IMG/VR virus record: IMGVR_UViG_3300027763_002421
Coordinates: 1-44,572 of that record
Reading direction: 5' to 3' (one strand)
Origin: a virus
DNA: 44,572 bases
Below the pieces are notes generated by a model, which made no database searches, was not told the DNA's origin, and worked only from the letters and a program-made list of their open reading frames with translations. Of the stretch, positions 4,092 through 29,355 are shown piece by piece (position 1 is the first letter of the stretch; each line of letters begins with the position of its first letter). The translations under genes and the position numbers were made by a program.

Positions 4092-4376
4092 TTATTGATC
4101 CATAGTTAAATATTGCCAGGTATTGGCCCAGTCTTGTTTTTCTTTATGAGAATTAAACTCTTTTGAAATAATACCGTTTTCTAAATATATACCGCCCCAT
4201 ACTCCCCACTCTTTACCAGAAATACCATGTGCAAAGCAAGTTTTTGAAACAGGGCAACTAGAACACAACCTGTCTATTGCTAACCTTAAATCAACTTCAT
4301 CTTCATATTTTTCAAAAAATATATTTGTGTCATATTCAAAACAAGAGCCATCATCTTTCCATGCATGTCTATTCAT
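4092..4376 (-). CDS. whiB: WhiB-family Fe-S transcriptional regulator
   Basis: This 94-residue protein has the four cluster-binding cysteines of the WhiB-like family, C12, C38, C41 and C47 (CxxC plus a third at x5), followed by the GVWGG turn at 58-62. WhiB-like proteins bind a [4Fe-4S] cluster and partner sigma factors. They occur only in actinobacteria and their phages, so this gene is the strongest host marker in the window. The long basic helix expected after GVWGG for DNA binding is replaced by a mainly polar tail (LENGIISKEFNSHKEKQDW), so it may act by competition for the sigma factor. Confidence 0.95.
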   Translation of the reverse strand: MNRHAWKDDGSCFEYDTNIFFEKYEDEVDLRLAIDRLCSSCPVSKTCFAHGISGKEWGVWGGIYLENGIISKEFNSHKEKQDWANTWQYLTMDQ

Positions 4377-6575: not shown

Positions 6576-7220
6576 TTATTCTCCATTTTTCTTTAGTGTG
6601 AAACAAATATTTAATAAAATTCTCAAATCATTTTCTTTTGGTGAAAACCCAGTATGCAACTTTTTTCCATCAAAAACAACGCCCTTGCCAGCAGTTGGAG
6701 AAATTGAATTTGAAACCTTCAACTCACCAAAATTGCCAGCAGTTTTTAAAACATCAAGTATTTTTTTATCGTATACTTCTGTTACTCCATCCGAATCATT
6801 AAAGTAATAAAGAAAAACCATATGGTCTTCTATTGAATCAACATGGGGATAATTTCTAGAATCTTTTTCTTTATAAGATCTTGTTGCTATGTTAATTTTA
6901 CTTCTTATAATTTTGTCATATTTTATGTTGTGCTTAAAGCAAAACTTTTCAAAAACATCTTTTACAATATCAAAATCTAATCTAGAAACAATTTGAAAAT
7001 ATGGTTCAGATTTTTGATCTTGCATATATACTGTTGGTGCATTTTTCCATTGCCAAGACTTATCTTTGGTTTTTTGAAAATCAATTATCTCTGGAACATA
7101 TTCAGGAATCCAATTAATTTTTCCATACAAAAAACTTTGATCAGAGAATATTCTTCTTAAAAACTCATCCTGCTCTTCTTTGGTTAAAAAAGAATCATCT
7201 TCAATAAAAAAATCACTCAT
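6576..7220 (-). CDS. 2OG-Fe(II) oxygenase-like protein
   Basis: This 214-residue protein carries a plausible complete Fe(II)/2OG site: H126 and D128 (NYPHVDS), H189 (KKLHTGFSP) and R200 (DLRILLNICF). The strand VFLYYFND before a variable loop is typical of the phage P4H-like group. The substrate is unknown. It overlaps the DUF7455-like gene by 8 nt and is followed after 2 nt by the nuclease gene. Confidence 0.82.
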   Translation of the reverse strand: MSDFFIEDDSFLTKEEQDEFLRRIFSDQSFLYGKINWIPEYVPEIIDFQKTKDKSWQWKNAPTVYMQDQKSEPYFQIVSRLDFDIVKDVFEKFCFKHNIKYDKIIRSKINIATRSYKEKDSRNYPHVDSIEDHMVFLYYFNDSDGVTEVYDKKILDVLKTAGNFGELKVSNSISPTAGKGVVFDGKKLHTGFSPKENDLRILLNICFTLKKNGE

Positions 7221-9472: not shown

Positions 9473-9501
9473 ATTATATCAAACTTTGTTTAAATCTTCA
9501 A
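9473..9501 (-). promoter_or_regulatory. Promoter of the endolysin gene
   Basis: TTGAAG, a 17-nt spacer and a perfect TATAAT on the minus strand, overlapping the end of the upstream gene. The -10 lies 23 nt before the ATG, with the Shine-Dalgarno in between. This gives the lysis gene independent expression within the long minus-strand unit. Confidence 0.6.
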
Positions 9502-10138
9502 GGTATCTTGTATTAAAGCGATTAGCCCAAAAAGACTGATAAACAGTGCCTTGGTCCCCATTGTCCTTTTCAATAGTTAGATGTGGATGCTTGCTTATTA
9601 AATAATTTATTTGACCAAGTTTTGGCTCTTGAAATCTTGTATCAACATACTTATATAAAGTATTTGGGTTTTCAGCAATGTAATTTTTTACTTCTTTATC
9701 TAGATCAATAGGGCCATTATGCTGTTGATTGTCTGAACAACTCCAATAAAACTTTATATCTTTAAACTTATTTTCAAGTTCTGCTAAACTATTAACAAAG
9801 TCTTCAAAAATGAAATCAGAATTTTGTACTTCTGAAAACAAAATAAAAATAACATCTGGAGAATATTCAGAAAAATATTCTTTTGCATTTTTTATAACAT
9901 TTTTATAATCTATATCTTTATCATCTAATGCAAAAAAATCAGAAACCAGAGTGTGCTTTCTTAGTAGTTTGTCTAGTCTAAATGGCCAAACATTTTTAAA
10001 AGTTTCATCGTCATGCATTAGATCTGAAGATCCAAAATATGCTACATGCAGGTTACCACCATGATCTTTTTTAAATTCTTCACACATATAACCATGACTA
10101 TTTTTTGTTCCATCATATTTGCTTAGTACTTCTGTCAT
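9479..10138 (-). CDS. SGNH-hydrolase-like protein, tentative
   Basis: The 219-residue protein starts a core strand with LHVAYFGSSDLMHDDE and WPFRLDKLL, like block I (GDS and WPxxLxxxL) of SGNH/GDSL esterases. Next come a strand DVIFILFSEVQ and one with FYWSCSDNQQHNG, then SKHPHLT where the family has its catalytic Asp/His block. The Gly and Asn blocks are not convincing, so this is a weak assignment. Its start overlaps the stop of the carbamoyltransferase gene by 4 nt. In that setting an acyl- or acetyl-ester hydrolase or transferase acting on a sugar would make sense. Confidence 0.5.
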   Translation of the reverse strand: MTEVLSKYDGTKNSHGYMCEEFKKDHGGNLHVAYFGSSDLMHDDETFKNVWPFRLDKLLRKHTLVSDFFALDDKDIDYKNVIKNAKEYFSEYSPDVIFILFSEVQNSDFIFEDFVNSLAELENKFKDIKFYWSCSDNQQHNGPIDLDKEVKNYIAENPNTLYKYVDTRFQEPKLGQINYLISKHPHLTIEKDNGDQGTVYQSFWANRFNTRYLEDLNKV

Positions 10139-11577
10139 TTATTATAATCCATTCCTGTTAAAATTTTAAAGTTGTATTCTTTTTCCCAATTTAAAATATC
10201 GTTGTTATCGTTTAATAAAGGTTGGCCCTTAATATTTAGACTTGTATTTAATAATAATGGTACACCTGTTTTAAGATAAAACTTATTAATAGTCCTCCAC
10301 AAACCTCTATGCTGATGCTTGTTTACAGTTTGCACCCTAGATGTACCGTCAGCATGGACTACAGATGGAATCTTTTCTGGTTGTAAACACTTAACTGTGT
10401 ACTGCATATAAGGGCTTGCAAAGTCCATATCAAACCACTTAGAGGCACACTCTTCCATAACTACTGGGGCAAACGGTCTAAACAACTCTCTTTGTTTAAT
10501 TAAATTAACTTTATCTTTAATGTTTGGATCTCTTGGATCTGCAAGAATACTTCTATTTCCCAATGCTCTTGGACCGTATTCTGCTCTTCCTGTTGCTACT
10601 GCCACTATTCCATCTTTTAATATACCGTCCACAATTTGCTGAACAGGATACTCTCCTCCAAGATCATAACCAAGATACGGAGTCTTCCAATCAAGATGTT
10701 TTCCGTATAAGGCTGCTGCTGCTCCCAAAGAACTACCAGCATCACCAGGGTTTGGCATGATCCAAATCATATCAAATATATTCCATAGTAATGTATTGGC
10801 TGATGAGTTAAGTGCACACCCGCCCATAAATACCAAATTCTTTTTTCCTGTAATTGAATAGGCCATATGCATAAAGTCATTAAGTCTTTGCTGGTATACA
10901 AATTGAACTGCTGCTGCTATATCAAATTTATCTTGCTCAGATTCAATCAACCCCCAGTCAGTAATTCCTTTATGAAAGTTATACTTTTGTTTGGTATACG
11001 AAGGGAAATATTCATCAACTTTTCTATAATACTTTTTCCAGTCTCCATAAGCAGCCATTCCCATCATAATGTATTCTTCTTGGTTTGGCATCAGGCCTAT
11101 GAGTTGAGTAAATGCTGAATAGAACAATCCAAAACTAACAGGATAGTTTTGCTTATATTTTAATTTAATTTTATCGCCTTCACCCACCCAAATTGTGGAG
11201 GTATTATATTCACCAATTGCATCAAGAACTACAATCACTGCATCATTAAATGCACTTGTATAATACCCCGCTGCTGCGTGAGAATAGTGATGAGTAAAAG
11301 ATTTTCTTGGAATTCCAGGAATTTCAAACCTTGGCTTCCACTCTCCAGAACCACCCTTTAAAGCAAGCCTAGAGGCCTTTAGAAGGGGCTTTTCATAGTA
11401 GGCTACATGATCAGGCATTCCATACTGTAAAGCATCTTTTATTAAACTATCATTCACATACCAATCATTTTTTTGCTTACTATATCTTTCAGCATGCCCT
11501 GCAAATAATATTTTTCCATCTTTAATTAAGGATACAGAAGCATCATGCGATGTTTCATTTATTCCAAGAACTATCAT
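10135..11577 (-). CDS. Carbamoyltransferase, NodU/CmcH/TobZ family
   Basis: This 480-residue enzyme carries both domains of O-carbamoyltransferases. The N-terminal YrdC/Kae1-like domain has INETSHDASVSL (His 11, Asp 12) and HHYSHAAAGYY. The C-terminal domain has GRAEYGPRALGNRS and ADPRD, which is near-invariant in the family. Cellular members carbamoylate hydroxyls of sugars or antibiotics using carbamoyl phosphate and ATP. Members occur in large marine phages, with unknown substrates. It sits between the SGNH-like gene and two oxygenases with 4-nt overlaps. Hydroxylation, glycosylation and carbamoylation of one acceptor is a plausible combined function, which is inference. Confidence 0.93.
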   Translation of the reverse strand: MIVLGINETSHDASVSLIKDGKILFAGHAERYSKQKNDWYVNDSLIKDALQYGMPDHVAYYEKPLLKASRLALKGGSGEWKPRFEIPGIPRKSFTHHYSHAAAGYYTSAFNDAVIVVLDAIGEYNTSTIWVGEGDKIKLKYKQNYPVSFGLFYSAFTQLIGLMPNQEEYIMMGMAAYGDWKKYYRKVDEYFPSYTKQKYNFHKGITDWGLIESEQDKFDIAAAVQFVYQQRLNDFMHMAYSITGKKNLVFMGGCALNSSANTLLWNIFDMIWIMPNPGDAGSSLGAAAALYGKHLDWKTPYLGYDLGGEYPVQQIVDGILKDGIVAVATGRAEYGPRALGNRSILADPRDPNIKDKVNLIKQRELFRPFAPVVMEECASKWFDMDFASPYMQYTVKCLQPEKIPSVVHADGTSRVQTVNKHQHRGLWRTINKFYLKTGVPLLLNTSLNIKGQPLLNDNNDILNWEKEYNFKILTGMDYNK

Positions 11578-12242
11578 TCTTCACCATTGGATAATCTTTT
11601 AGTGTCAAAATCAATATTGTGATACCAGTTTGGCAGAGCATATCTTGGACCTTTTGTAATTGGATATACCTCATGAACATATAAAAAGTTTGAAGGGAAA
11701 AACAAAATACTACCAGCAGCAGGTTTAAACTTAATTCCTGAATGTTTAAATTCTATTTCCCCACCTTCATAATCATCATTGAGGTAAAGCAATACAGATA
11801 AAACACGACTACTAACACCTTGATCTTGATGGGCTGGAAGATGTCCACTTTCATCATATTTTAATAGATGCATTGTGTGTTCTCTAGACTTAATGTTTTT
11901 TTCTGCAAACGGATAAATTGCAGTTGAGTAGTGATTTAATGTTGAGTCTAATGCCCCAAATAATTCAGAAGATATACTTAACTGCTCATTAAAGTATGGG
12001 TCACAACTAGAAATATCCTTTACCTGTGGAATAAGTTTTTGCCAACAAAACATAAGTTCATTTGAGCCATTGTTATATGTCCACTTTGTCCAAGGACCTA
12101 CGCATGTATTCTCCAACTGACCATCATCGACATACAGTTTGTCCAAATTTTCTATTTTTTCTATAATTGATTTAGGATCTTTAATTACATCTTTATAGTA
12201 AACTAATCCTAAATCTAATATCTCAAAATTAAAGTTTTGCAA
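11574..12242 (-). CDS. 2OG-Fe(II) dioxygenase, P4H-like
   Basis: The product is 222 residues from a TTG at 12242. This start is chosen because GGGAG lies 7 nt upstream; an in-frame GTG at 12281 lies inside the previous gene without a ribosome site. The iron and 2OG ligands are H138, D140 (PAHQDQG), H190 (YVHEVYP) and R200 (GPRYALPN). The strand LYLNDDYEGGEIEF is nearly the same as in the plus-strand oxygenase at 1033. Substrate unknown. It is part of the carbamoyltransferase operon. Confidence 0.88.
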   Translation of the reverse strand: MQNFNFEILDLGLVYYKDVIKDPKSIIEKIENLDKLYVDDGQLENTCVGPWTKWTYNNGSNELMFCWQKLIPQVKDISSCDPYFNEQLSISSELFGALDSTLNHYSTAIYPFAEKNIKSREHTMHLLKYDESGHLPAHQDQGVSSRVLSVLLYLNDDYEGGEIEFKHSGIKFKPAAGSILFFPSNFLYVHEVYPITKGPRYALPNWYHNIDFDTKRLSNGEE

Positions 12243-12831
12243 GATGGTACTCCCTTGCCATCCATTTAGGATTTTTTTCACCTATAATAAAGTCTGGATC
12301 TGCATGTTTTGGTAAACTTGTATGCATGTATAAACCAGTAAATCTGTGACCGCTTGTTACTTCTGTAATACCATGAATATATTCGCTTCCAGAACTTGGG
12401 AAAAATACTGCAGAGTATTGCTTTGGTTGATACTCAAATCCTTGATTTGGAAAATAAATTTTTCCTCCAGTGTATTCAGATTCATGGTTTAAATACATTA
12501 TTGTGCTCCACTCAATAAAGGGTTCTGGACCTTGAGCATCTAAGTGCAACTCTCCCTTAGTACCTTCTGTCCAATGTGAACCAAATGATTTGTATACATA
12601 TATTGGGTTTAAAAAACCATTGTCTTGTCTATGTACCTCATTTGAAATATTTCCATACTTAACCATTATATCCATAACTATTTTATTATATGGCAATGAT
12701 GTTCCTCCATATCTTTGTGCATAGTATGCGGGATAAGGATTTCTTTCTGCAAATGGATCTGTCTGCTGATCGATCAAAGTCTTTGCATCTTCTGGACTAA
12801 TAAAGTTTTCTATTATTTTTATTCTGTGCAT
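12229..12831 (-). CDS. 2OG-Fe(II) dioxygenase, P4H-like
   Basis: The 200-residue protein has a complete iron/2OG set: H96 and D98 (LHLDAQG), H153 (EYIHGITEV) and R163 (GHRFTGLYMH). The strand MYLNHESEYTGGKIYF resembles the other P4H-like members here. It overlaps the glycosyltransferase gene by 13 nt and the next oxygenase by 14 nt, so translation is probably coupled. Two adjacent but divergent oxygenases suggest two hydroxylation steps on one or different substrates. Confidence 0.88.
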   Translation of the reverse strand: MHRIKIIENFISPEDAKTLIDQQTDPFAERNPYPAYYAQRYGGTSLPYNKIVMDIMVKYGNISNEVHRQDNGFLNPIYVYKSFGSHWTEGTKGELHLDAQGPEPFIEWSTIMYLNHESEYTGGKIYFPNQGFEYQPKQYSAVFFPSSGSEYIHGITEVTSGHRFTGLYMHTSLPKHADPDFIIGEKNPKWMAREYHLAKL

Positions 12832-13691
12832 TTTTCCTCCTCAACCATTATATCACTTATGTGATATATAGAATTATAGCCATTGTGAAATCTGCCAACA
12901 CCTTTACGATCTAAATTAAAGTCTTGAGTCCTAAATATGTACTCAACATCATTAGTCTCAAATTTCATTATTTTTAAATTTTCAATAATAATATTGTGAA
13001 AATCGTTAAAATTTTTTGCAACATCTGTATTAAAGTATTCATATATTTTTTTATAGTTATGGTTTTCAGAATATGGCAAATAGTCTTTTTTTAATTTTGT
13101 TCCCTGATTATAAACTTTATTTCCAACAGAAAATATTCTAATATTGTTTTTTATTAAAGTTAAAGTTAGCAATAAATCTTGACCGTATTTTTTTAAAGTT
13201 TTATTATTAAATTCAAATAAACTTAAAATATTTTTTTTATCTATTGCAATAAAATCCATATCTATCCAATTAGTTTCAGAAACAAAATCTGTATGACTTC
13301 CTAAGTTTTTTAAATAAAAACCATCAATAGATAATTTTGCATTTTTGTTTCCAGAAAAAACAACATTTGGAATATTTTTAAAATTATCAACTAGGTCAAT
13401 GTCCCAATCTTTTTTCAACTCTATTGAATCTGAAACCTCAACATAGTAGTCATAATCTTTTTCTATTATATTTTTTCTATATTCTGTAATTGGAAAATAA
13501 GAATCCCAATTTATATGATTATATTTTACTGAAGGTATATTTTTAAAATATTCCGTTCTGTTTATATTGTTTTGATCATACACATAGATCCTTATCTTGT
13601 TTTTATTGCTGCATGAATCTACAATATTTGTAGCAATATTAACTAAATTATTATTTTTATATGAATATAAAAATATTACTATTTCTTTCAT
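12819..13691 (-). CDS. Glycosyltransferase, GT-A fold, Skp1-GlcNAc-transferase-like
   Basis: The 290-residue protein starts with the strand IVIFLYSYKNNN. After the R-x-x-x-I helix (EYRKNIIEKDYDYYVEVSDS) comes DSIELKKDWDIDLV, where the family places its metal-binding acidic motif. A later TNWIDMDFIAIDKKNI fits the acceptor-side motif. This matches the pattern of GlcNAc-transferase-like GT-A enzymes (PF11397 type), which transfer a sugar to hydroxyl groups, for example hydroxyproline in the Skp1 pathway. The Skp1 enzyme acts after a prolyl-4-hydroxylase, and P4H-like genes flank this one here. The acceptor is unknown. Confidence 0.65.
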   Translation of the reverse strand: MKEIVIFLYSYKNNNLVNIATNIVDSCSNKNKIRIYVYDQNNINRTEYFKNIPSVKYNHINWDSYFPITEYRKNIIEKDYDYYVEVSDSIELKKDWDIDLVDNFKNIPNVVFSGNKNAKLSIDGFYLKNLGSHTDFVSETNWIDMDFIAIDKKNILSLFEFNNKTLKKYGQDLLLTLTLIKNNIRIFSVGNKVYNQGTKLKKDYLPYSENHNYKKIYEYFNTDVAKNFNDFHNIIIENLKIMKFETNDVEYIFRTQDFNLDRKGVGRFHNGYNSIYHISDIMVEEEKCTE

Positions 13692-14350
13692 TATGCCAAT
13701 GGAATATAATGTTGTTCTTCTGCCTTTTCAATAAATCTTAAAGGAATTATATCGTAAGCAACAGTAATTCTTGGACCATCCCAATCCCAATTTCCTTGTG
13801 CATGTGGATGCCCCATCTCAGAAATAATTAATCTATTATCAATATTTTTGTTTTCAAAAATAAGTTCTTCTTTATTTTCTATCTTATAAAATGTTGAGGA
13901 AGGCTCTGCCTTAACACAGTAGTATCCATGAAAGTTTGGTGCCCAAGGGCCACCGTGATCGTGCCAGTCAAGTTTACCAACCTTTGAATGATTTATATTA
14001 AACCAACCCTGAATCATATACTTTTCTTTTGCAAAGTCTATTCCGTAATATTCACAGGCCTCTTTTACTAGATCTCTAACTCCAAGATAAAGATTGTATA
14101 TTTCTTCGCTGTGAAACTGAAAAACATTATACTCTCTCCACTTTACTGTAGAAATACTTCCAGACTCAAGCCAGTATTCCTGTTTTTCTGAATGTAATTT
14201 TGATACGCCAAAAACCTCACCTTGCTCAATCTGATCATATTTTTTGTGCAAGAATTTAGACATCTTGTCTAGATCATTATTTAAAAACTTTTCAAAAAAC
14301 TTATGAGGCTTATCATATAGTTTTGGCATGCTGTAAAAGTCTTGATTCAT
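13691..14350 (-). CDS. 2OG-Fe(II) oxygenase-like protein, 2OG-FeII_Oxy_5 type
   Basis: The 219-residue protein has a metal-binding motif LDWHDHGGPW (H130, D131, H132), followed by FHGYYCVKAEPSSTFY, the SGxYYL-type strand of the Oxy_5 group. H181/H183 (GHPHAQGNW) and R194 (PRITVAYD) come next. It differs from the P4H-like members and may have another substrate. The stop overlaps the glycosyltransferase start, and AAAGGGAG precedes its own ATG. The assignment is good for fold and moderate for activity. Confidence 0.78.
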   Translation of the reverse strand: MNQDFYSMPKLYDKPHKFFEKFLNNDLDKMSKFLHKKYDQIEQGEVFGVSKLHSEKQEYWLESGSISTVKWREYNVFQFHSEEIYNLYLGVRDLVKEACEYYGIDFAKEKYMIQGWFNINHSKVGKLDWHDHGGPWAPNFHGYYCVKAEPSSTFYKIENKEELIFENKNIDNRLIISEMGHPHAQGNWDWDGPRITVAYDIIPLRFIEKAEEQHYIPLA

Positions 14351-14371
14351 TTTTTCTCCCTTTAGTTTTTC

Positions 14372-15103
14372 TTAATATCTTTTTTTATCCCATGCAAACT
14401 TTTTATAGTGTGCAGTAATATGTGATCTTCTCTGTTCTTCTAAAATCTTATGTTTTTCATAAGATTCCTTTGACATATCTATGTCAATTTCCCAATCATC
14501 TCTCTTGATTGGTATCATTTGCATTATTGGTGTGCCCTGCTCTATTGTACCAAAAAAGTCTCTTTTCAGAAAAAATGGTATAAATACTGGAAGACCCCAG
14601 ACATCTGCGTCTACAATTCCAGATGGTACATAGAATGGCAAGTCAAAACGGTTAAGCGGGTGAGTAATTAATATTGAGTATCCTGGTGGTGTTTCGTAAT
14701 ACCAGTTCATCTTAAATCCAAAATGTATAGGATGGCAATCTTTTGGTATTGCCATATCAACATTAAATCTTTTATCTATAATTGGAATATCTTTTTTCCA
14801 TGACACAACTGGTATATTGTCATCATCAAAATCAACATGTACATCATCCTCTAATCTGTAAATGTAACCAGCAGTCATTGAGTCTAAAAATGGTACACAA
14901 AGTTTTGTTGAAACATCTGATCCATCAGAGCCACGATCATTAATTGGAAAAAGATTTTTCATATCATTGCTAGTTCCATATTTATAGCCGACAAGATCTT
15001 TGTACCAATCTGGAACCATCCTGCTTGCACTTACTGGTTCTACCAGCATGTCTATAAACTTAGGGTCATTTGATGCTGGAACAAACTTTACCTTATTGTT
15101 CAT
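14372..15103 (-). CDS. DUF6065-like protein
   Basis: This 243-residue protein has the DUF6065 signature YYETPPGYSILITHPLNR, DLPFYVPSGIVDAD, a PVFIPFFLK strand and IEQGTPIMQMIPIKRDDWEI. The fold is probably a cupin/jelly roll. The family is common in marine and freshwater phages and biosynthetic clusters and is of unknown function. It lies between the oxygenase operon and a related gene (15093-15758). Confidence 0.75.
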   Translation of the reverse strand: MNNKVKFVPASNDPKFIDMLVEPVSASRMVPDWYKDLVGYKYGTSNDMKNLFPINDRGSDGSDVSTKLCVPFLDSMTAGYIYRLEDDVHVDFDDDNIPVVSWKKDIPIIDKRFNVDMAIPKDCHPIHFGFKMNWYYETPPGYSILITHPLNRFDLPFYVPSGIVDADVWGLPVFIPFFLKRDFFGTIEQGTPIMQMIPIKRDDWEIDIDMSKESYEKHKILEEQRRSHITAHYKKFAWDKKRY

Positions 15104-15758
15104 TATATTCTTTCTTTATTTGCTCAATTGTCTCTGAATCTTTTATAATTATATCACATATGGGTGTTCCTATATCTATGATGCCGTATCTTTCATCTTT
15201 CATGTGTTTACCAGTTTTATTTATAAAAAAATGAATCCACTTTGTGTCTAATATATGTTTTGAAAAATCAACTTTATTAAAATAAATAACATCTGTTATT
15301 AAATTAAACACAGTTTCGTCACCAAAATTATCTGATATTTTGCATTCAATATCTTTATTAATTATCCATGGAAGATAAAATTTATACAACGCATTAAAAC
15401 TAATATTTTGGCTATCAGCAGTAATTTCTGATGGATAGAACTGTCTTTGCCAGCATTTATCAAGTGCGTAGAGTCCATTATACTTTGGTTCAACCCAGAT
15501 TTCTGCATGTGTTTTTTGACGCAAAATAGCATGATCATCATTAATGATTAACTCTGGCTTATTGTGAAATATTTCTGCATACCTATTTACTGGAACTAAA
15601 AACTTATTGATGTAACTTTGATCAAATACATGACCAGAAACGCCCCATTCTGGATAAAGTCTACTGCCTATGACCAAATCAGAAAAACTTTTGTTTGCAG
15701 AATTAATCCAATACTCAGACCCCACTATACCATTTTTAGATAAATCATCATTTGGCAT
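15093..15758 (-). CDS. Possible distant DUF6065 paralogue
   Basis: The 221-residue product is not recognised directly. Its C-terminal strand (GIIDIGTPICDIIIKDSETI) matches the IEQGTPIMQMIPIKRDDW segment of the downstream DUF6065-like protein. Both have a preceding YLPW/PF strand and WIHFFI-like strands. It overlaps that gene by 11 nt. The pair probably arose by duplication and may form a heteromer. Function unknown. Confidence 0.5.
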   Translation of the reverse strand: MPNDDLSKNGIVGSEYWINSANKSFSDLVIGSRLYPEWGVSGHVFDQSYINKFLVPVNRYAEIFHNKPELIINDDHAILRQKTHAEIWVEPKYNGLYALDKCWQRQFYPSEITADSQNISFNALYKFYLPWIINKDIECKISDNFGDETVFNLITDVIYFNKVDFSKHILDTKWIHFFINKTGKHMKDERYGIIDIGTPICDIIIKDSETIEQIKKEYNEQ

Positions 15759-16484
15759 TTAGTTGTCCTTAAACATAAAGTTACTAACAACAAGAACTAT
15801 CCTTGTGTTATCATTTATTTGTTTTATTTTATCATGGTTTGCTACAAAATCTATATCACCAATCACAGAAAACTCTGTAGGTAGTGTCATATTACAACAA
15901 ATTGCAATCTGTTTTTTTACTTTTTCAAAACTATAATTTTTAATTAAATAATTAAGTACTTCCTGAAGGGTATCTGCATATAATGGCGTTACAAATGATC
16001 CTGCAGCATCCTTATGTTTCTTTAAGTTTTCTATAACTGTATGAATACCATGCGATATAGTGATATCTCCACCAACAAAACCACTAATTACATAGGCATT
16101 AAGGAATGCGTTTGGTCCAGGTACAACCACATACTCAAAGTTATTTTTAATACATTCCTGAATAAACTGACTTCCTGGATCTGCAACACCAATAAGTCCT
16201 TCTGATGCTACAAGCAATACTGTTTTTCCAGACTCAATATATTCTTTAAAAAGTTTTATTTGATTTGAATCAGCATAAGTTGAATCTTTGCTTTTTAAAA
16301 CAACTATGTCTTTTTTAATTTTAAGTTGTTTTATTATGTTTATAGCATTAATCTCTGAATCATCACTAAAAATAACATCTGAACTAACAAAATAGTCTAG
16401 CATTCTTTGAGACATATCGGCAATATTACCAATATGCATTGATCCAACAATTAATTTGCCAATCTTTGCTGGGGTGGCAGGCAT
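15759..16484 (-). CDS. RsmI-like SAM-dependent tetrapyrrole-methylase-superfamily protein
   Basis: The 241-residue protein has the order of the RsmI branch: GKLIVGSMHIGNIADMSQRML (the LYVVATPIGNLxDxTxR strand), IFSDDSE where the family has EDTR, then VASEGLIGVADPGSQF (the SDAGxPxxxDPG loop) and VVPGPNAFLNAYVISG (PGPSA motif). RsmI 2'-O-methylates C1402 of 16S rRNA. The SMHIGN and SDDSE changes mean the substrate may differ. The start is awkward: the only ATG that keeps the first beta-strand is at 16484, which lies in the T-loop of the upstream tRNA gene. A non-standard ATT start further down is the alternative. Confidence 0.75.
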   Translation of the reverse strand: MPATPAKIGKLIVGSMHIGNIADMSQRMLDYFVSSDVIFSDDSEINAINIIKQLKIKKDIVVLKSKDSTYADSNQIKLFKEYIESGKTVLLVASEGLIGVADPGSQFIQECIKNNFEYVVVPGPNAFLNAYVISGFVGGDITISHGIHTVIENLKKHKDAAGSFVTPLYADTLQEVLNYLIKNYSFEKVKKQIAICCNMTLPTEFSVIGDIDFVANHDKIKQINDNTRIVLVVSNFMFKDN

Positions 16485-16541
16485 CGATCCTGCGACATCC
16501 GAATTAACAGTTCGGCACTCTACCATCTGAGTTACACCCCA
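16469..16541 (-). tRNA. tRNA-Asn (anticodon GTT)
   Basis: A 73-nt cloverleaf: acceptor TGGGGTG/CACCCCA, D-arm ACTC/GAGT with loop AGATGGTA, anticodon stem CCGAA/TTCGG with loop CTGTTAA (anticodon GTT), a 5-nt variable loop and T-stem GCAGG/CCTGC. The discriminator is G, as expected for Asn. CCA is not encoded. The T-loop is ATCGATG, so the usual first T is replaced by A. It starts 7 nt after the stop of the protease-like gene and overlaps the probable start of the methylase gene. Confidence 0.95.
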
Positions 16542-16548
16542 AAACCTT

Positions 16549-17334
16549 TTATGCTGTTACTTTTACTGGCTTGCCAACAATAGACCCTATAGAAACATAT
16601 TGTGCTGCAACAGATGCTGTAGCAGAAGATGTTGTTAGTGGAATAGTCTTAAACAGTGTTGATGAAAAGTTGTCACCAATCAAAGGGAGTCTAACAAGAT
16701 TTGCAGAGTATTTAACTGATGTTGAATCAGCAAAACCTGGTGCAGTTACAGCATTTACTGATGAAAGGCATGCTGGATAATCAATCTTTGTGCTTCCAAA
16801 TGTATTTCCTGCTGAGGCAAATACTTGAATTCCCTTAGAGTTAAGAGAACTAATTAAGGATTTAATCATTGCATCTGCAGCATCAACTGTGTATGGTGCA
16901 GAAGATGATGGCATGCATGGCTTTGATGGACTATTGAAGTATCTTGAAAATGATACTGCACCAATATTTTGAGAATTACTATCTACCCACTTCAAAGCCT
17001 CAATAAACATTACTGGTGTTACATCTGCAACAGACTTTGAACTTGCTGGTGCTGATCTAAGAGCAATAATTTTAATACTTGAATTTTGACGCTTTGCAAC
17101 TTCAACCATTGCATTGCCATGATTAATGTTATTTCCAATACTTGAATTTGTAATAGTAACAATATCTGTGCATGAAGATTTTGTTTCTACAACAATGCAT
17201 GAAACATTTGAACCTAAAACCTTAGAATCAAAATAACTATCAATAATGACAAGTGACTTTGAATCTGCTCCATGTGCTTGAACTGGTACTACAACTGAAA
17301 ATAATACTGCTGCTAGTGCTACGATCTTTTTCAT
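16549..17334 (-). CDS. Secreted subtilase-like (S8) protein with altered Ser motif
   Basis: The product is 261 residues with a Sec signal peptide (MKKIVALAAVLFSVVVPVQAHGA). Catalytic positions of the subtilisin fold can be placed: D32 (VIIDSYF), H72 (NNINHGNAMVEV), the oxyanion Asn in FASAGNTFGS, and Ser in TTSSATASVAAQ, which aligns with GTSMATPHVAA. The Gly before Thr-Ser and the Pro after it are changed, and the domain is short, so activity may be reduced or specific. The ATG at 17334 follows AAAAGGA and gives a proper signal peptide; longer in-frame starts do not. Probable role: processing of surface proteins outside the cell. Confidence 0.75.
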   Translation of the reverse strand: MKKIVALAAVLFSVVVPVQAHGADSKSLVIIDSYFDSKVLGSNVSCIVVETKSSCTDIVTITNSSIGNNINHGNAMVEVAKRQNSSIKIIALRSAPASSKSVADVTPVMFIEALKWVDSNSQNIGAVSFSRYFNSPSKPCMPSSSAPYTVDAADAMIKSLISSLNSKGIQVFASAGNTFGSTKIDYPACLSSVNAVTAPGFADSTSVKYSANLVRLPLIGDNFSSTLFKTIPLTTSSATASVAAQYVSIGSIVGKPVKVTA

Positions 17335-17351
17335 TTTATTCCTTTTCATTT

Positions 17352-17555
17352 TTACGATATCATCAATCTGACGACATGTTGGCATGGGTCGCCACCTGCT
17401 TCCCATTCTTCTGCTTCTTCTTCACCTATGTATTCATATCCACCATCATGGGTATTGCAATATGGTGGTGTTACCCAACCACGATCAATACCGTTTGACA
17501 ACCAGATACCAAATTCTTGTTCTTCAGGTGACAAATCATCGTGTGTGTGATTCAT
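17352..17555 (-). CDS. Small acidic actinobacterial-type protein
   Basis: The 67-residue product has an ordered pattern: LSPEEQEFGIWLSNGIDRGW, PPYCNTHDGGYEY and EEWEAGGDPCQHVVRL. I recognise this as a conserved small-protein type in actinobacteria and actinophages, of unknown function. Two Cys plus several His may bind metal. It has no Shine-Dalgarno at close range (AGGAG is 12 nt away), but a near-consensus promoter ends 6 nt before the ATG, so it is likely leaderless. Confidence 0.7.
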   Translation of the reverse strand: MNHTHDDLSPEEQEFGIWLSNGIDRGWVTPPYCNTHDGGYEYIGEEEAEEWEAGGDPCQHVVRLMIS

Positions 17556-17561
17556 ACTTTA

Positions 17562-17590
17562 AGTATACTCCTAGATACTAACTATGTCAA
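17562..17590 (-). promoter_or_regulatory. Near-consensus promoter, leaderless for the 67-residue protein gene
   Basis: TTGACA, a 17-nt spacer and TATACT on the minus strand. The -35 and part of the spacer lie inside the last codons of the Ntn-hydrolase gene. The -10 is followed by 6 nt and then the ATG at 17553-17555, so transcription should begin at the start codon. Confidence 0.75.
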
Positions 17591-18095
17591 CTGGTCCCAT
17601 GCAGGACGGACTAAATTTAATTGCAGCATTTACTGCTTGAGCAACTCTATTTCTTGCATTTTTTTGTTTATCTGTTGCATATAAAACCCCGTATGCATAT
17701 TCTGCTCCAGAACCCATTGCAAGATAAGGAAGTGTGTACTTAGATAAAGACATGTCTGCAGAACTATGTTCATAAATTTCACCACGAACTGCAATAATTA
17801 AACCAAGATCTCCATCTTTAGATGTATCAACCCAGAATTCATTATAGAATTCACGAAGTTCTTTTACAAATTTAGTTTGCATAAACTTATCTGTGTCTTT
17901 AATATTAGGAGCAGTTGGCTTAAAGTTATAACGGATTCTTTCTCCGTCCATTGCACCTGCATACCCAATTAGATACGGACCAATTTTCCAAACCTTTGGT
18001 GCATCAAGTGCTAAAATTGTTCCATCATCTGAAGCACCACGATCACCAGCCATATAGATCTTATCTTCATGTTTTACTACGGCAATACAAGTCAT
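17571..18095 (-). CDS. Proteasome-beta/HslV-like Ntn hydrolase
   Basis: The 174-residue protein begins Met-Thr. After Met removal it would expose Thr1, with D17 (MAGDRGASD) and K33 (LDAPKVWKI) at exactly the positions of the catalytic triad in proteasome beta subunits and HslV. GYAG and the later LAMGSGAEYAYGVL, with the G-S-G helix cap, also fit. Self-compartmentalised threonine proteases degrade unfolded proteins delivered by an ATPase. No ATPase partner is in the window, so it may use a host partner or work alone, for example in capsid maturation. Expressed from a near-consensus promoter. Confidence 0.85.
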   Translation of the reverse strand: MTCIAVVKHEDKIYMAGDRGASDDGTILALDAPKVWKIGPYLIGYAGAMDGERIRYNFKPTAPNIKDTDKFMQTKFVKELREFYNEFWVDTSKDGDLGLIIAVRGEIYEHSSADMSLSKYTLPYLAMGSGAEYAYGVLYATDKQKNARNRVAQAVNAAIKFSPSCMGPVDIVSI

Positions 18096-18459: not shown

Positions 18460-18687
18460 TTAGTCCTCCTTTCTTAGCGGGATTGTGATAAGCCATATAA
18501 CTGTTGTTGCAAGTACTGCAAGTCCAACGATGTCTCTTGCTGATCCCGTCAAAGTTAGCCATGCGATAAAGAAGCCAAGGAGGGTAAATGCCTGTGCAAT
18601 TAATTCCATTCCTGCATCTTTAAACCATTTAATTAATCCCTTTAGCATTTTGCCTACCAGGTTGATGGCCTTATTGATTATCTTCAT
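18460..18687 (-). CDS. Small two-helix membrane protein
   Basis: The 75-residue product has an amphipathic basic N terminus (MKIINKAINLVGKMLKGLIK) and two membrane helices (about 32-48 and 52-70). It has a strong Shine-Dalgarno (AGGAGG). The start overlaps the stop of the PA14 gene (ATGA), and it ends 2 nt before the next start. Holin or antiholin candidate; no family recognised. Confidence 0.55.
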   Translation of the reverse strand: MKIINKAINLVGKMLKGLIKWFKDAGMELIAQAFTLLGFFIAWLTLTGSARDIVGLAVLATTVIWLITIPLRKED

Positions 18688-20858
18688 TTGTTCCTCCTTA
18701 TGACTGCCCCTGCAATTTGTGATGCAATGACCACTGGGACAATTACTTCTTGCGCTTTCTCTCTCTGATCATCTGTCATATCCATACCTAACTCAGAGAA
18801 ATTAGATAGGAGTTCTGTAACATCCACTTCAAATACTGCTCCAAGTGGGTCTGCTAAGAATGCTTCTGTTTGTACTTCTGTTACTGCATCTGCTAATGTA
18901 AATGGCATTGGTGCTTCTCCTGCATCCCCCGCTCTTTCTGCGAACTCAACAAATGCTGAGGCTACTGCAGGGTTTGACTTCATTGCCTCTGCTACCTTTG
19001 CAACCTCACCTGCTGAAATACCAAGGTCTGATGCAAGTTCTTTCTTTGCTTCCTGAGTCAAAGACTTAAGAGTCTGGCTTACTGCTGCTGTCTGTTCTGG
19101 AGAAAGTTTAACTAACTTATTATCCTTGCTTGTAAGGTTAGCAATAACTCCAGACAAATCTTCTGCTGTTCCGCTACCCTTTTCTGGGATAAGTGCTGCT
19201 AACTCTGCATCCTTGATGACTGGATCAATGTTTTCTGCTGGTTTAAAATCTGGTCTTGGAAGTGGTTTAACCTCTGTAGAAGGTTCAATAGGAGGCTCTG
19301 GTTTGGGTTCTGGCTTTGGTTCAGGACTTGGGGCAGGGGTAGGCTTAGGCTTTTCTGGTTTTGTTGGCTCAGGCTTAGGTTCTTCTGGTTTAGGCTGTTC
19401 TGGTTTTGGACCTGGCTGTGTTGGCTTTGGGCCTGGCTCTTCTGTTCCAGTAGCATTGCTTGGCTTAGGTTCAGGCTTTTCTGTTGGTGGTGGGGAAGGC
19501 TTTGGCTTTTCTGGTTCAACAGTTGGTTTTGGTTCTGGCTTAGGCTGGTTTGCTGCAGCATTGGCTGCTGCTTGAGCAATTGCTCTTTGAATTTCTCTTT
19601 GTGACTGCTCATCATAGTAACGCCATGCGTCATCAATTGCGCTATTGACATCATTGACTGCATTATTAAAATCATTTATAGCATTATTTTTTTCAGACAA
19701 GGCATCTTCTGTATCATTTACTGCATTATCATACTCAGACTCTTTATTAATTAATGTTTGATTTAATGAGTTTAGTATTGCAACCTGTTGACTATATACA
19801 TTTAGTTTATCATTATATTCTGCTGAGGCATTATTATAGTCTTGCTGTGCTGCATTTCTTGTTTCAAGTGCTTGGTTATAAGCATCTGTTTGTGCTTGTG
19901 TTGGCCCAGAGCCAGAAGAAAATGTATCAAGATTACAACTAAAGTTTTGTCCCCACACTCTTGGATTTCCAGCATAGTCGCAACCTGCACCCGTCCAACC
20001 TAAACTGCCAGATGAACCATAGGGTATTCCCCATCCAAGATGATAAGATCCTGGTCCTCCACCGTTGTACCACCAAATCTCTACATCAAATGTTTTATCT
20101 GTGGTTACATCATATATTGGAGAGTATTGACTCCATGTTGTTCCCTGTTCCTTCCAGTTATTAATGGCAAGGTTTCCATCAATATACATCCTAAAACCAT
20201 CATCTGTGTAACCTGCAAATTTTGTTGATGTGAACCATTCTGGAACTGTTATCTGTCCAGTAAATTTAACTATAAAGTTTTCATATCTATTACCACAAAC
20301 TGGAAGGCTCATATAGTTTGAGTTCCAAGTACCAGAACAAAGCACATATCCTGGGGTAGCAACATTACCCTGTCTAACAAGAGTATAAACAGTATATGCC
20401 AAACCTTCTCCTCCAGCACTCTGCATATTTGATTGCGCCGTTTGAAGGTTGATGTTGGCTATGTTGAGAGCATCCTGTGCATCGTTCTTATCTTGTAGGG
20501 CATCCTCTTTATAATTAAAAGAAAGTTCTACTGTTACTGTCTGGCCATCTACATTTGACTGGGCAAGTTCTACTGCATCTAGGGCTAACTCTTCTGCCTC
20601 TACTGCATCATCATAGTCTGCAATTGCCTCATCCCTGACATCCCGCAGATTTTTGGCATACATAAACTTATTTTCTGCTATGTCAATCATATTAATTAGA
20701 CCATCTTTGTAGTCTAATTTATCTACTGCGCTATTAAGGTTCTCGATCTGCTTGGCTGCAACTGTGAGGGGATCATCAGAATGAGCGTCTTGCGGGGATA
20801 TGAGGAGCCAACCAAAGGCCAATACTGATGCCACTGTTATGCGTAATAATCTTTTAAT
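18684..20858 (-). CDS. Large secreted PA14-domain protein with coiled coils and Pro-rich linker
   Basis: The product is 724 residues. Residues about 1-28 form a Sec signal (KRLLRITVASVLAFGWLLI and a cleavage region). A coiled coil follows to about 145. A PA14 domain (about 150-320) contains YTDDGFRMYIDGNLAINNW, the ligand-binding strand of the family. A second coiled coil spans about 330-430, a long Pro/Lys/Glu repeat of KPEP type about 440-555, and an alpha-helical C terminus. PA14 domains bind carbohydrates. The basic signal n-region lies upstream of the first GTG (20834), and a GGGGG Shine-Dalgarno sits 8 nt before an in-frame ATT at 20858, so ATT initiation is likely. It could be a released surface or adhesion factor, or a virion protein. 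Confidence 0.78.
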   Translation of the reverse strand: MKRLLRITVASVLAFGWLLISPQDAHSDDPLTVAAKQIENLNSAVDKLDYKDGLINMIDIAENKFMYAKNLRDVRDEAIADYDDAVEAEELALDAVELAQSNVDGQTVTVELSFNYKEDALQDKNDAQDALNIANINLQTAQSNMQSAGGEGLAYTVYTLVRQGNVATPGYVLCSGTWNSNYMSLPVCGNRYENFIVKFTGQITVPEWFTSTKFAGYTDDGFRMYIDGNLAINNWKEQGTTWSQYSPIYDVTTDKTFDVEIWWYNGGGPGSYHLGWGIPYGSSGSLGWTGAGCDYAGNPRVWGQNFSCNLDTFSSGSGPTQAQTDAYNQALETRNAAQQDYNNASAEYNDKLNVYSQQVAILNSLNQTLINKESEYDNAVNDTEDALSEKNNAINDFNNAVNDVNSAIDDAWRYYDEQSQREIQRAIAQAAANAAANQPKPEPKPTVEPEKPKPSPPPTEKPEPKPSNATGTEEPGPKPTQPGPKPEQPKPEEPKPEPTKPEKPKPTPAPSPEPKPEPKPEPPIEPSTEVKPLPRPDFKPAENIDPVIKDAELAALIPEKGSGTAEDLSGVIANLTSKDNKLVKLSPEQTAAVSQTLKSLTQEAKKELASDLGISAGEVAKVAEAMKSNPAVASAFVEFAERAGDAGEAPMPFTLADAVTEVQTEAFLADPLGAVFEVDVTELLSNFSELGMDMTDDQREKAQEVIVPVVIASQIAGAVIRRNK

Positions 20859-26672: not shown

Positions 26673-26975
26673 TCAGCGTGTGATGTATTTCAGTGCAGAC
26701 ACTAAATTGTTAATTGATTCAGCAGCAGTGTAGTAAAGATTTTTTTTGCCTCTATCAGATTTATCTACATTTGCCATCCATGTTGCTTTAAATGCCATCT
26801 TTGCTGCGATTGCCTGAAGCCTTACAATCTCTACATGAGCAACATTGATTGGGATATCTGGCTTTATAATTAGTTTAGCAATCATTGTTAATGCAGTTGT
26901 CAGTTCTTCATCTTCCATATAGTCTGCAATTTCTACAAGACCATTTACCATATCAATAGTTGTTTTTTCTTCCAT
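26673..26975 (-). CDS. Small all-helical protein
   Basis: The 100-residue protein is predicted all helical. It begins MEEKTTIDMVNGLVEIADYM with Met/Glu-rich helices and contains VEIVRLQAIAAKMAFKATWM. No motif or family is recognised. Its start overlaps the stop of the upstream oxygenase-like gene by 1 nt. Confidence 0.6.
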   Translation of the reverse strand: MEEKTTIDMVNGLVEIADYMEDEELTTALTMIAKLIIKPDIPINVAHVEIVRLQAIAAKMAFKATWMANVDKSDRGKKNLYYTAAESINNLVSALKYITR

Positions 26976-27751
26976 TAAAAATCATCTCCAATTACTCCGT
27001 CTTTCATACCATCCTGATGATAAAGATTCCACGCTGCTTTAAATTCTGGCAAATAGTTTAAAGAATTTGTGTAAGCGCTTCTTTTTTCTGGATATGTGTA
27101 TGCATCTAGTGGATTCATTTCTCCAGTAAACCTATAGTTAGTTATTGGACAATAGTCCATGCTAACAATCTCAAGAAACTCGCCATCTTTAAATTTGCGC
27201 TTTGGTCTCCAGTGAACCTGATTGACTGCACTGAAAACTATTGTTTGCCCAGGCTCTAGTGTATATCTTGTAAAGGTGGTCCCGTCTTCTTGGTTTCCAA
27301 TATAAAGATCCCACTCAATGTTTCCATCAACACAGTGATTAATAGTTATTAGATTTTCATCTGCGTCTATATGTGGAGGCAACTTTGGACTATTATTTCC
27401 ATTGCCATACTTTTTATTATATTCAATATAGTTATAATGACATAGAGCGACATCTCCATCATAAATTGGTTTTGCAATATTGTCTAGTTTTTCTTCTAAG
27501 TTTTTGGGCATCTGAAACTCAACAAGCACTCTTGACATATATTCAATTGTTTTTGGTCTAAACCTATCCCAATTTTTTTCACTAGTCTGCTCATTTGGTT
27601 TATGCACAACTGGATCTAGCATATTTTTATTTTGATAAATAATATCCATTAACTGTTTTGATTCAGCATCAGTAAATAAATTATCTACATAAAATGGAAC
27701 TTTTGTTTTATATTTATTAAAATCAGTTAGGTACTTGTGAATTTCAGCCAT
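26975..27751 (-). CDS. 2OG-Fe(II) oxygenase-like protein, tandem family copy 1
   Basis: The 258-residue product has H127 and D129 (LPPHIDADENL), then TLEPGQTIVFSAVNQVHWRP with H180 and R182, and DGEFLEIVSMDY. This matches a cupin-like Fe(II) site HxD...H, but the distal 2OG-binding Arg is not clear. HWRPKRKFKDGEFLE is almost the same as in the next gene (HWRPKREFVDGEFLE), so this is a recent duplication. Stop and start are 2-3 nt from the next copy. Substrate unknown. Confidence 0.72.
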   Translation of the reverse strand: MAEIHKYLTDFNKYKTKVPFYVDNLFTDAESKQLMDIIYQNKNMLDPVVHKPNEQTSEKNWDRFRPKTIEYMSRVLVEFQMPKNLEEKLDNIAKPIYDGDVALCHYNYIEYNKKYGNGNNSPKLPPHIDADENLITINHCVDGNIEWDLYIGNQEDGTTFTRYTLEPGQTIVFSAVNQVHWRPKRKFKDGEFLEIVSMDYCPITNYRFTGEMNPLDAYTYPEKRSAYTNSLNYLPEFKAAWNLYHQDGMKDGVIGDDF

Positions 27752-27753
27752 AA

Positions 27754-28413
27754 TTAATTTGACTCTTTCGGATTGTACTTTAGCAAGCCGTCTTCTGACT
27801 TGTTAGATGAAGCACCCGTTTCATCATTCCAAACTATATATTTTTCTTTTGCTCTTTCTCTCATAATGTTTACATGATCAGCAGTGAGGGTTTCTGATGT
27901 AGTTGGTGAGAAGTGCAAAAATATTGCTTCTAAAAATTCACCATCTACAAATTCTCTTTTTGGTCTCCAGTGAACCTGATGAGAACCAGAAAAAGAAAGT
28001 AGTTGATTGTCTTTGAGTGTATATGTTGCTTCAGACTCCCAGTTATCTACTGTAATTCCCCAAGATACATTTGAACCTATCTGATAGTCTAAAGTGAGTC
28101 TTGACTCATTAAATACCTCGTCAGTATGTGGAAAGAGCAATGGATAAAAAGTATACTTTCCACAATTTGAAACTGTTTTTTGATATCTAGAAAAATTATA
28201 TTCCTTTAGAACTAATGATTCTCCAGCAATACCCTCAGCATATTTTGTAAACTTATCAATAATATGTTGTGGTAATTGAATATGCCAACTGTTATATCCA
28301 AGATCTTCAACAAAGGTTTGGCTGGTAGTTGAAGAAACAATCTTATATATTTCTGATACATCTTCTTGTGTTAAAGCATTGTCGATTAATACGTTTGGTA
28401 AATCTTTTTTCAT
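27754..28413 (-). CDS. 2OG-Fe(II) oxygenase-like protein, tandem family copy 2
   Basis: The product is 219 residues from an ATG at 28413 preceded by AAAGGAG; the in-frame start 30 nt further up has no ribosome site. Ligands are H96 and D98 (LFPHTDEV) and H148 in SGSHQVHWRPKREF. The stretch VSWGITV has a counterpart EWDLYI in copy 1 and DWGIIV in copy 3. It follows the nuclease candidate by 20 nt. Confidence 0.72.
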   Translation of the reverse strand: MKKDLPNVLIDNALTQEDVSEIYKIVSSTTSQTFVEDLGYNSWHIQLPQHIIDKFTKYAEGIAGESLVLKEYNFSRYQKTVSNCGKYTFYPLLFPHTDEVFNESRLTLDYQIGSNVSWGITVDNWESEATYTLKDNQLLSFSGSHQVHWRPKREFVDGEFLEAIFLHFSPTTSETLTADHVNIMRERAKEKYIVWNDETGASSNKSEDGLLKYNPKESN

Positions 28414-28432
28414 AGTATCTCCTTTTATTATA

Positions 28433-28717
28433 TTATACACCATCTAGAATTTGATCTAATAAATCAAATTCCAGTATAGCAAGTCTAACTTTTGTATTTC
28501 CAGAGCCAAGAACAACTATTATTAACGGATCGCTATTATTTTTAATTGCATCTGTTGTGGCCTTTGCCCATACATCTTTATTTAATGTGAAAGACTTTGA
28601 AGCCTCTTTAAAATCTACAGTAAAGTTTTGCCATGTTGCATCACCTTTATGTGTGTTTCTACCAGAATTCTTGTGCTGTTTTGCACCAATTCTTTTTGAC
28701 TCACTCTTTTCTGTCAT
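28433..28717 (-). CDS. PD-(D/E)XK nuclease candidate (Hjc/VRR-like)
   Basis: The 94-residue basic protein has SGRNTHKGDATW, then FTVDFKEASKSFTL, where D-F-K matches the second acidic residue and catalytic Lys of the core. A helix with KDVWAKATTDAIKN and a strand PLIIVVLGSG follow. This resembles archaeal-type Holliday junction resolvases and other minimal PD-(D/E)XK enzymes. It sits between oxygenase copies 2 and 3 and overlaps copy 3 by 17 nt. Confidence 0.55.
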   Translation of the reverse strand: MTEKSESKRIGAKQHKNSGRNTHKGDATWQNFTVDFKEASKSFTLNKDVWAKATTDAIKNNSDPLIIVVLGSGNTKVRLAILEFDLLDQILDGV

Positions 28718-29348
28718 TTGTTTCTATCTGACTATCAATCCCCGTGTCCATCATTAAGGCACGAGTTCTTTTTTCTAATATGGCTACATGATTTTCCTGA
28801 AGAGGTCTATCATTTTTATATACAAGATGACAAAACATCATATCAATTTTTGTATCTTGTCCTATCCGCTTATCTTCTCTCCAGTGCATCTGTTGGCTTC
28901 CCGCAAAGATCAAGGCATCATTGTAGTTTAGATTGTACTGTTCACCCTCTACTATAATTCCCCAATCCTCATTTGATTCTAGTTGAATATCACATGTTAC
29001 CCTTTGTGACTTTTTTGTATCATAGTGTGGGAATAGTTTGCACTTATAACCATACTCTTCTGAGTATCTGGCAAAAGAATATTCAGCCATAATCATTTCT
29101 TCACCAACTATTTCTGATACTCTTTTTTCTATTTGACTAATAACATCATTTGAAAATTTAGTATGATATGCTTTGTGCCCAGCCCAAGGCTGAGTTATTG
29201 TTTGGGAGTCATCTGTCTGAGCAACCTTATAATATATTTCTGCAATATGCTCGTCAGATAAAATGTTTTCAATTTGCACAACAGGAAAATCTTGATTGTC
29301 AATAAAGTCTTCTGCTTTTGTTTTTGTATACATAGGAAAATTATTCAT
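28701..29348 (-). CDS. 2OG-Fe(II) oxygenase-like protein, tandem family copy 3
   Basis: The product is 215 residues from an ATG at 29348; an in-frame upstream extension lies within the Zn-protein gene and is not used. Ligands are H108 and D110 (LFPHYDTKK) and H155 in FAGSQQMHWREDKR. The pattern LFPHxD ... (D/S)WGI ... GSxQxHWR is shared with copy 2. It is the most divergent of the three. GAGG is 12 nt upstream of the start. Confidence 0.68.
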   Translation of the reverse strand: MNNFPMYTKTKAEDFIDNQDFPVVQIENILSDEHIAEIYYKVAQTDDSQTITQPWAGHKAYHTKFSNDVISQIEKRVSEIVGEEMIMAEYSFARYSEEYGYKCKLFPHYDTKKSQRVTCDIQLESNEDWGIIVEGEQYNLNYNDALIFAGSQQMHWREDKRIGQDTKIDMMFCHLVYKNDRPLQENHVAILEKRTRALMMDTGIDSQIETNDRKE

Positions 29349-29355
29349 AATACTA

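Follow-up and report, generated by a model that had tools for sequence, protein, structure and literature searches.

Here we describe a set of genes on a virus record of the IMG/VR database (IMGVR_UViG_3300027763_002421; its whole stretch of 44,572 bases is called the window below). The genes named H, F and E, together with two related genes, G1 and G2, very probably form one pathway that is inherited as a unit, and we put at about even the chance that H, G1, F and E, with D and C, act together with a G2 gene at a second site as a phage pathway that modifies the phage's own repeat-rich protein of the tail-fibre cluster. The genomic evidence consists of the gene set, its co-inheritance, its split over two sites, its nearness to tail genes, and a number of oxygenases that matches the type of repeat; the substrate, each chemical step and the role of the carbamoyltransferase B are what we infer from it. 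Each of the 23 window proteins mapped has a 100% match in the 116.6-kb record G002. The window genes concerned lie among nine open reading frames (ORFs), A to I, that run head to tail on the minus strand at positions 9479-16466, overlapping or with gaps of at most 21 nt, at the place where a first-pass annotation of the sequence had put a possible hydroxylation-glycosylation-carbamoylation operon:

A, 9479..10138, minus strand: SGNH-like protein, probably non-catalytic; the His of the family is replaced by Asp
B, 10135..11577, minus strand: NodU/TobZ-type O-carbamoyltransferase
C, 11574..12281, minus strand: 2-oxoglutarate (2OG)-Fe(II) oxygenase, prolyl-4-hydroxylase-like; GTG start, the true start perhaps later
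D, 12229..12831, minus strand: 2OG-Fe(II) oxygenase
E, 12819..13691, minus strand: GT-A glycosyltransferase of the GT60-like (PF11397) type
F, 13691..14350, minus strand: second oxygenase-like type (phrog_2696)
G (G1), 14372..15103, minus strand: remote DUF6065 relative with a dUTPase-like fold
H, 15093..15758, minus strand: called DUF6065-like in the first-pass annotation; weak homology to G
I, 15759..16466, minus strand: RsmI-like TP methylase, probably outside the pathway
tRNA-Asn, 16468-16541: upstream of I

The tRNA does not lie between H and the RsmI-like gene, as had been proposed, but upstream of I, so that the start of I should be at or below about position 16467. This place, referred to as site 1, is the lysis region, between a secreted protease-like gene and a CHAP lysin. 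When the window was compared with its nearest distinct relative (L083; L083-L085 are near-copies and were counted as one comparison), dN/dS was 0.02-0.06 for C, D, F, G and H, 0.07 for B and 0.12-0.18 for A, E and I, the value of 0.18 being that of E against L085. These ratios indicate that purifying selection maintains A to I. Viral contigs were also scanned with B, of whose 567 relatives the best 80 were kept, the window genes being mapped on the loci of at least 15 kb, and with G, which gave at least 600 stretches, 79 loci being kept. The order H-G-F-E-D-C recurs in many of the B loci, with 27-76% identity outside the closest relatives, and other loci have H-G-G-E-D-C without F; among the 79 loci found through G, 36 contain H-G-(G/F)-E, one of them incomplete at its end. 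The homology search for gene order that the first-pass annotation had suggested therefore finds the order in relatives, and the failure it had allowed for, an order kept in no related phage, did not occur. Together, the low dN/dS and the recurring order indicate that the gene set is not a chance arrangement.

Co-inheritance was followed in 21 long records (75-119 kb) of our own choosing, nine of them obtained through B, eight through the ribonucleotide reductase (RNR) and four through G. Fourteen of these records have H, F and full-length E together, and the other seven have none of the three; one of the seven (G026) has two partial E-like matches. The presence of the H/F/E set changes at least six times on the RNR tree, and it does so as a set. 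The tree of the G proteins contains two clades, G1 and G2, of 14 rows each, and every set-bearing genome has one of each; a third G of G004 and the G genes of G005, G013, G014, G015 and G026 fall outside both clades, and the trees of G and F carry long branches. The set is divided between the two sites in more than one way: eight genomes, including that of this phage, have HGFE at site 1 and G2 at site 2, five have HGGE at site 1 and two F genes at site 2, and in G027 the entire set is at site 2 with none at site 1, G2 being located at site 1 in five genomes and at site 2 in nine.

The second site lies at the tail-fibre cluster. In this phage a second pair of genes, F' and G', is found at 71.2-72.6 kb, between a repeat protein and the class II RNR. 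The repeat protein has an Fn3 domain (1.2e-8), FSPFGVFG repeats and, by eye, a Hint-like end; it gives by itself one weak minor-tail match (3.5e-4), and the gene preceding it has an Mtd_N domain (1e-14) and matches to tail-fibre PHROGs. For other phages, position and repeats served to identify the repeat protein, and two of the four further repeat proteins that were tested contain Fn3 (L121 and L096, not L103 and L146). Whole blocks that follow the repeat gene directly or after one gene are found in L121, L125, L128 (incomplete), L132 (in which the repeat ORF is broken), L137, L139, L140, L142-L144 and L258; the block order is HGGFFEF in L121 and L132, and FGHGF(F)EOO in L125, L137, L139, L140 and L142-L144. 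In all 14 set-bearing records, the repeat protein has G2, F or the entire block at a distance of 0-2 ORFs (counting those of at least 70 aa).

The oxygenases at site 2 follow the type of repeat. An RNR-anchored scan gave 80 loci, of which 46 were classed by simple repeat motifs and 34 without a recognised repeat protein were dropped, and we counted the C/D-type oxygenases between the repeat protein and the gene after the RNR. FFPPFFP repeats are accompanied by 4-8 such oxygenases in 21 of 21 loci and FSPFG repeats by a single one in 11 of 12 loci, L260 being the exception with none, and no C/D-type oxygenase is present at site 2 with FGAFGA repeats (0/7 loci) or HYAGF repeats (0/6). Thus, site-2 oxygenases are found with 32 of 33 proline repeats versus none of 13 others, or, after five of the 34 dropped loci had been read, 35/37 versus 0/14, counts for which Fisher statistics ignore descent. 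At least 14 changes of repeat class are required on the RNR tree, which disagrees with the classes; in six independent pairs, five to six go in the same direction and none in the opposite one (p 0.03-0.06). Four genomes of the FFP type (G005, G013, G014 and G015) have no H, E or F and carry oxygenases at site 2. In one locus, L096:9373-10746 (minus strand), a tail-cluster protein with long FFPPFFP repeats adjoins the oxygenases; 21 of the 46 classed loci are of this type. Another proline-rich protein was considered as the substrate that decides the presence of the block, namely the PA14 protein at window positions 18684-20834, which has a long proline-lysine-glutamate tract with 19 prolines in 40 residues. 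It was rejected, as its homologues are proline-rich whether or not the block is present, and as the block of L115 occurs in the absence of such a tract.

As to the enzymes, C and D match 2OG-FeII_Oxy_3 (PF13640) above the Pfam cut-off (1e-16 and 3.8e-7, respectively). An HQD...H...R pattern was identified in C by reading, and C also matches Tet_JBP weakly (1.8e-4, below the cut-off); in D, residues H96, D98, H153 and R163 are the same in all 14 sequences aligned. The Pfam scan gave no match for F, whose profile had none in the PDB either; F matches phrog_2696 (7.6e-11), and its HDH...H...R pattern, a candidate for the iron-binding triad of two His and one carboxylate, is invariant across seven sequences. 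Five more ORFs of the window look oxygenase-like by eye (at 26975-29450, 1033-1734 and 6576-7220); among the three of them that were scanned, the one at 1033-1734 matches PF13640 (1.4e-13) and the one at 6576-7220 does so weakly (0.0084, below the cut-off).

The window's E has no family match of its own, PF11397 included, and seven of 18 aligned E members match PF11397 (best 2.5e-4), the family of the Skp1 GlcNAc-transferase. Structures were predicted for E and G. The model of E (pLDDT 76) has a GT-A fold; its nearest folds, which act on proteins, polysaccharides or glycolipids, are headed by polypeptide GalNAc-transferases (1.6e-9). E is the fastest evolving of C to H; diversifying selection on it was rejected, dN/dS being merely 0.17-0.18. 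Its alignment is too variable for use as a scan profile, and a scan with E alone gave four loci. In one related locus (L069:7539-14231), a carbamoyltransferase is surrounded by four genes that look SGNH-like by eye and by two glycosyltransferases with clear PF11397 matches (~1e-15).

G matches phrog_7084 (1.1e-35) and, below the cut-off, DUF6065 (PF19541; 0.03). DUF6065 is matched by nine of 21 aligned G members at E values up to 0.1 (best 2.1e-5), and by a related phage gene, L096:5919-6635, at 3.6e-27; by these matches G is only a remote relative of the Pfam family. With the model of G (pLDDT 81), Foldseek returned dUTPases (best 1.0e-4), the other entries among the 50 matches listed being one dCTP deaminase and one titled otherwise, and in VIA-align the model superimposes on dUTPases with Z 9.4-10.2 and a root-mean-square deviation of 2.9-6.9. 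The G alignment has an invariant Gln at that of motif 4, and one Asp of motif 3 is nearly invariant in it. The dUTPase motifs also include PRSG (motif 2) and motif 5; neither was found when the invariant residues of G were read against them. Thus, although G shares its fold with dUTPase and dCTP deaminase (Z of about 10), it differs from them in these motifs and in having a C-terminal helix, and its predicted fold probably does not come with dUTPase function. H has no family match, and its profile similarity to G is weak (hhalign probability 50%, E 1.7e-4). Relatives of G are found in 49 halovirus records; in the three haloviruses that were examined (Hafunaviridae, e.g. NC_003345.2, 48119-49003) the relative lies between tail genes and the ribonucleotide reductase, as in the freshwater phages.

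The remaining genes are A, B and I. Where the other 12 of the 13 aligned sequences have the catalytic His of the SGNH family (DxxH block), A has Asp, and A is probably not catalytic; the name SGNH fold is itself weak, because the sole PDB profile match of A is a GDSL lipase at E 0.31. B matches PF16861 (1.2e-52) and PF02543 (2.4e-33), both above the cut-off, and phrog_1601 (2.8e-102); in loci other than its own it is 85-93% identical and is placed within the block or elsewhere. I matches PF00590 (4.7e-11, above the cut-off) and, at 61.7 bits against a cut-off of 167.9, TIGR00096 (7.1e-17). Among the loci of at least 15 kb from the best 80 of 567 B relatives it was seen only in the closest relatives, and it is probably not part of the pathway. 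By these comparisons the nine genes are not one pathway. The first-pass annotation had joined them in a single possible one, the core of which is supported, since H, F and full-length E are co-inherited, as expected of a hydroxylase with a GT60-like glycosyltransferase; its outer parts are not supported, as I was seen only in the closest relatives, A has lost the His of its family and B also occurs apart from the rest.

In the pathway that we propose, C, D and F would hydroxylate residues of an aromatic/proline repeat (FSPFGVFG in this phage), and E would attach a sugar to a hydroxyl, be it that of the hydroxylated residue or that of Ser/Thr. B may cap a hydroxyl of the sugar or the peptide with a carbamoyl group, and G1, G2 and H may be substrate-binding or scaffold subunits, or a new enzyme. 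The tail-repeat protein has a somewhat better than even chance of being the target, which is favoured because E is nearest to polypeptide GalNAc-transferases and because parts of the set are positioned at site 2. That hydroxylation would precede glycosylation falls just short of an even chance, and it is doubtful that B acts on the same substrate as the other enzymes. A wider view, which we put forward tentatively, is that of a two-locus system of post-translational modification for tail receptor-binding proteins, in which the repeat type and the enzymes are matched, and adhesin and chemistry are swapped together. Its pairs, which are no less tentative, would be FFP repeats with 4-8 hydroxylases, and FSPFG/FGAFGA repeats with hydroxylases plus an O-glycosyltransferase and two DUF6065-like subunits of dUTPase fold.

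The first-pass annotation had named a host surface glycan, a virion protein and a modified base as possible targets, and of these the virion protein is favoured by site 2. If DNA or nucleotides were hypermodified instead, the oxygenases would make hydroxymethyl-pyrimidines for E and B to decorate, and the dUTPase-fold proteins would handle nucleotides. The modelled fold of G, the G-type genes near the class II RNR here and near RNR in the three haloviruses, and the weak Tet_JBP match of C would fit this, as would a phage carbamoyltransferase of B's family that makes 5-carbamoyloxymethylcytosine (available part of PMC8670742). However, C is far closer to PF13640 than to Tet_JBP, the folds nearest to E are of the kinds given above, and the set tracks the tail-repeat type; B, moreover, has Val in the alignment where antibiotic carbamoyltransferases have Trp, a residue that would be, by our own inference, W408 of PMC8670742. 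The thymidylate-synthase domain PF00303 was found in none of 12 related records (possibly fragments; ThyX-type genes were not sought), on which ground base modification coupled to thymidylate synthase was rejected and a modified base in general is disfavoured, to the point of being unlikely. An action of the enzymes on a glycan of the host surface or on a wall polymer, whether to shut out other phages or to achieve release, we think equally improbable. In its favour are the place of site 1, flanked by the secreted protease-like gene and the lysin, and the decoration of glycans by carbamoyl- and SGNH-type enzymes elsewhere; against it, each of the 14 set-bearing records has some of the set at the tail-fibre cluster, and three oxygenases and dUTPase-fold proteins would seem ill-suited to glycan decoration.

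It may also be asked whether the genes have any functional tie to the tail, or form a module of variable cargo, hitchhiking among hot spots of recombination at the two sites. Cassettes do move, and the RNR tree and the repeat classes disagree, but H, F and E are all-or-none over at least six changes, one G1 and one G2 are kept across two loci, and the genes are under purifying selection; we give this explanation little credence. The odds are about level, by contrast, that the carbamoyltransferase and the SGNH-like protein are a pair with a separate function that merely shares the site. The position of B varies, and in all eight loci inspected in which it is elsewhere, it adjoins a gene that looks SGNH-like by eye; it is also present in three of the seven records without H, E and F. 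On the other hand, it is present in 14 of the 14 records with them, and the association persists in the 12 records that had not been found through B (7/7 with versus 1/5 without; p 0.01).

Several observations weigh against a pathway directed at the tail-repeat protein. The all-or-none pattern was checked in 12 further records, of which eight conform (all three genes in G001, G040 and G045; no H, F or full-length E in five) and four do not: H and E are found without F in G041 and G042, records that have no RNR site, and F occurs without H or full-length E in G022, whose site 1 is cut at the contig end, and in G028, which has a partial E-like match and no site-1 anchor. As each of the four lacks one site on its fragment, they are consistent with a two-site set but no test of it, and this check has slightly lowered our confidence in co-inheritance, to the high level given at the outset. 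The relation between repeats and oxygenases has exceptions in L260 and L222 (a PYSFTP repeat with a G gene only) and, outside the 80 loci, in G006, which is of the PYSFTP type with only G at site 2; furthermore, the repeat gene and its neighbours may travel as one cassette, which would leave fewer independent cases. FGAFGA genomes carry the site-1 block, including C/D-type oxygenases, with a repeat that has no proline, so that proline cannot be the sole residue modified, and further residues or a different protein must also be substrates. A Hint-like end, scored with a crude motif, is found in 0/21 FFP, 7/7 GAF, 7/7 HYA and 14/21 SPF proteins, and could be the real correlate. Finally, DxD/DxH is the conserved metal-binding motif of GT60/PF11397; the window's E keeps one Asp of it, which is lost in two of the 18 E members (L007 and L069), so that catalysis by E is not certain.

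Some neighbouring genes of the window may be mentioned here. A WhiB gene at 4092-4376 suggests an actinobacterial host. The gene at 16549-17406 encodes a secreted protein that resembles a degenerate subtilase by eye, without a Pfam match, and in L035 and L045 its place is taken by that of a trypsin-like protein (by eye). The gene at 17571-18095 encodes a conserved proteasome-like protein (PF00227, 5e-5) that is 89-98% identical in the related loci compared.

In the open-licence literature, including the available parts of PMC8670742, PMC9301287, PMC12774648 and PMC6802176, we found no report of this system, nor did we find in it DUF6065 or the combination of phage, prolyl hydroxylase, glycosyltransferase and carbamoyltransferase. 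Phages that infect marine bacteria widely carry 2OG oxygenases, many of these being EGLN3-like, with no substrate named in the part of the source available (PMC12774648). The 5-hydroxymethylcytosine carbamoyltransferase is of the same family as B and makes 5-carbamoyloxymethylcytosine, and its domain co-occurs with thymidylate-synthase domains (PMC8670742, available text); here that partner is missing from the 12 records and the neighbours differ. The carbamoyltransferases of cyanophages and Pelagibacter phages (phrog_1601) also belong to the family of B, with at most 42% identity to it; neither E nor F found a counterpart in the phage collection. In the cyanophage S-MS29 (L110; OQ504980.1), a carbamoyltransferase has a run of annotated oxygenases on one side and, past five genes on the other, a tail fibre gene, an arrangement that is perhaps a marine parallel.

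If the proposed pathway is true, it would give the DUF6065 group its first function, and the match between repeat type and enzymes names a concrete candidate substrate for virion mass spectrometry and suggests chemical maturation of receptor-binding proteins in freshwater actinophages. It would also be, to our knowledge, the first hydroxylation-plus-glycosylation system for the fibre of a bacterial virus. Among viruses of eukaryotes, mimivirus is known for collagen modification. The Chlorella virus PBCV-1 encodes a prolyl 4-hydroxylase (Eriksson 1999, cited in PMC9301287), and the viral use of this enzyme remains cryptic according to the available part of that source (PMC9301287). The likeness to these two viruses would lie in the virus-encoded hydroxylation of viral repeat proteins, which is here a proposal; both of them, however, infect eukaryotes. 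We know of no H/G/F/E set in either virus. In the Skp1 pathway of Dictyostelium and Toxoplasma, prolyl hydroxylation is followed by GlcNAc transfer. What the present system would have in common with it is a prolyl-4-hydroxylase-like oxygenase and a GT60-like (PF11397) enzyme, whereas here the genes are those of a phage, there are several oxygenases and dUTPase-fold proteins, and the likely target is a tail repeat.

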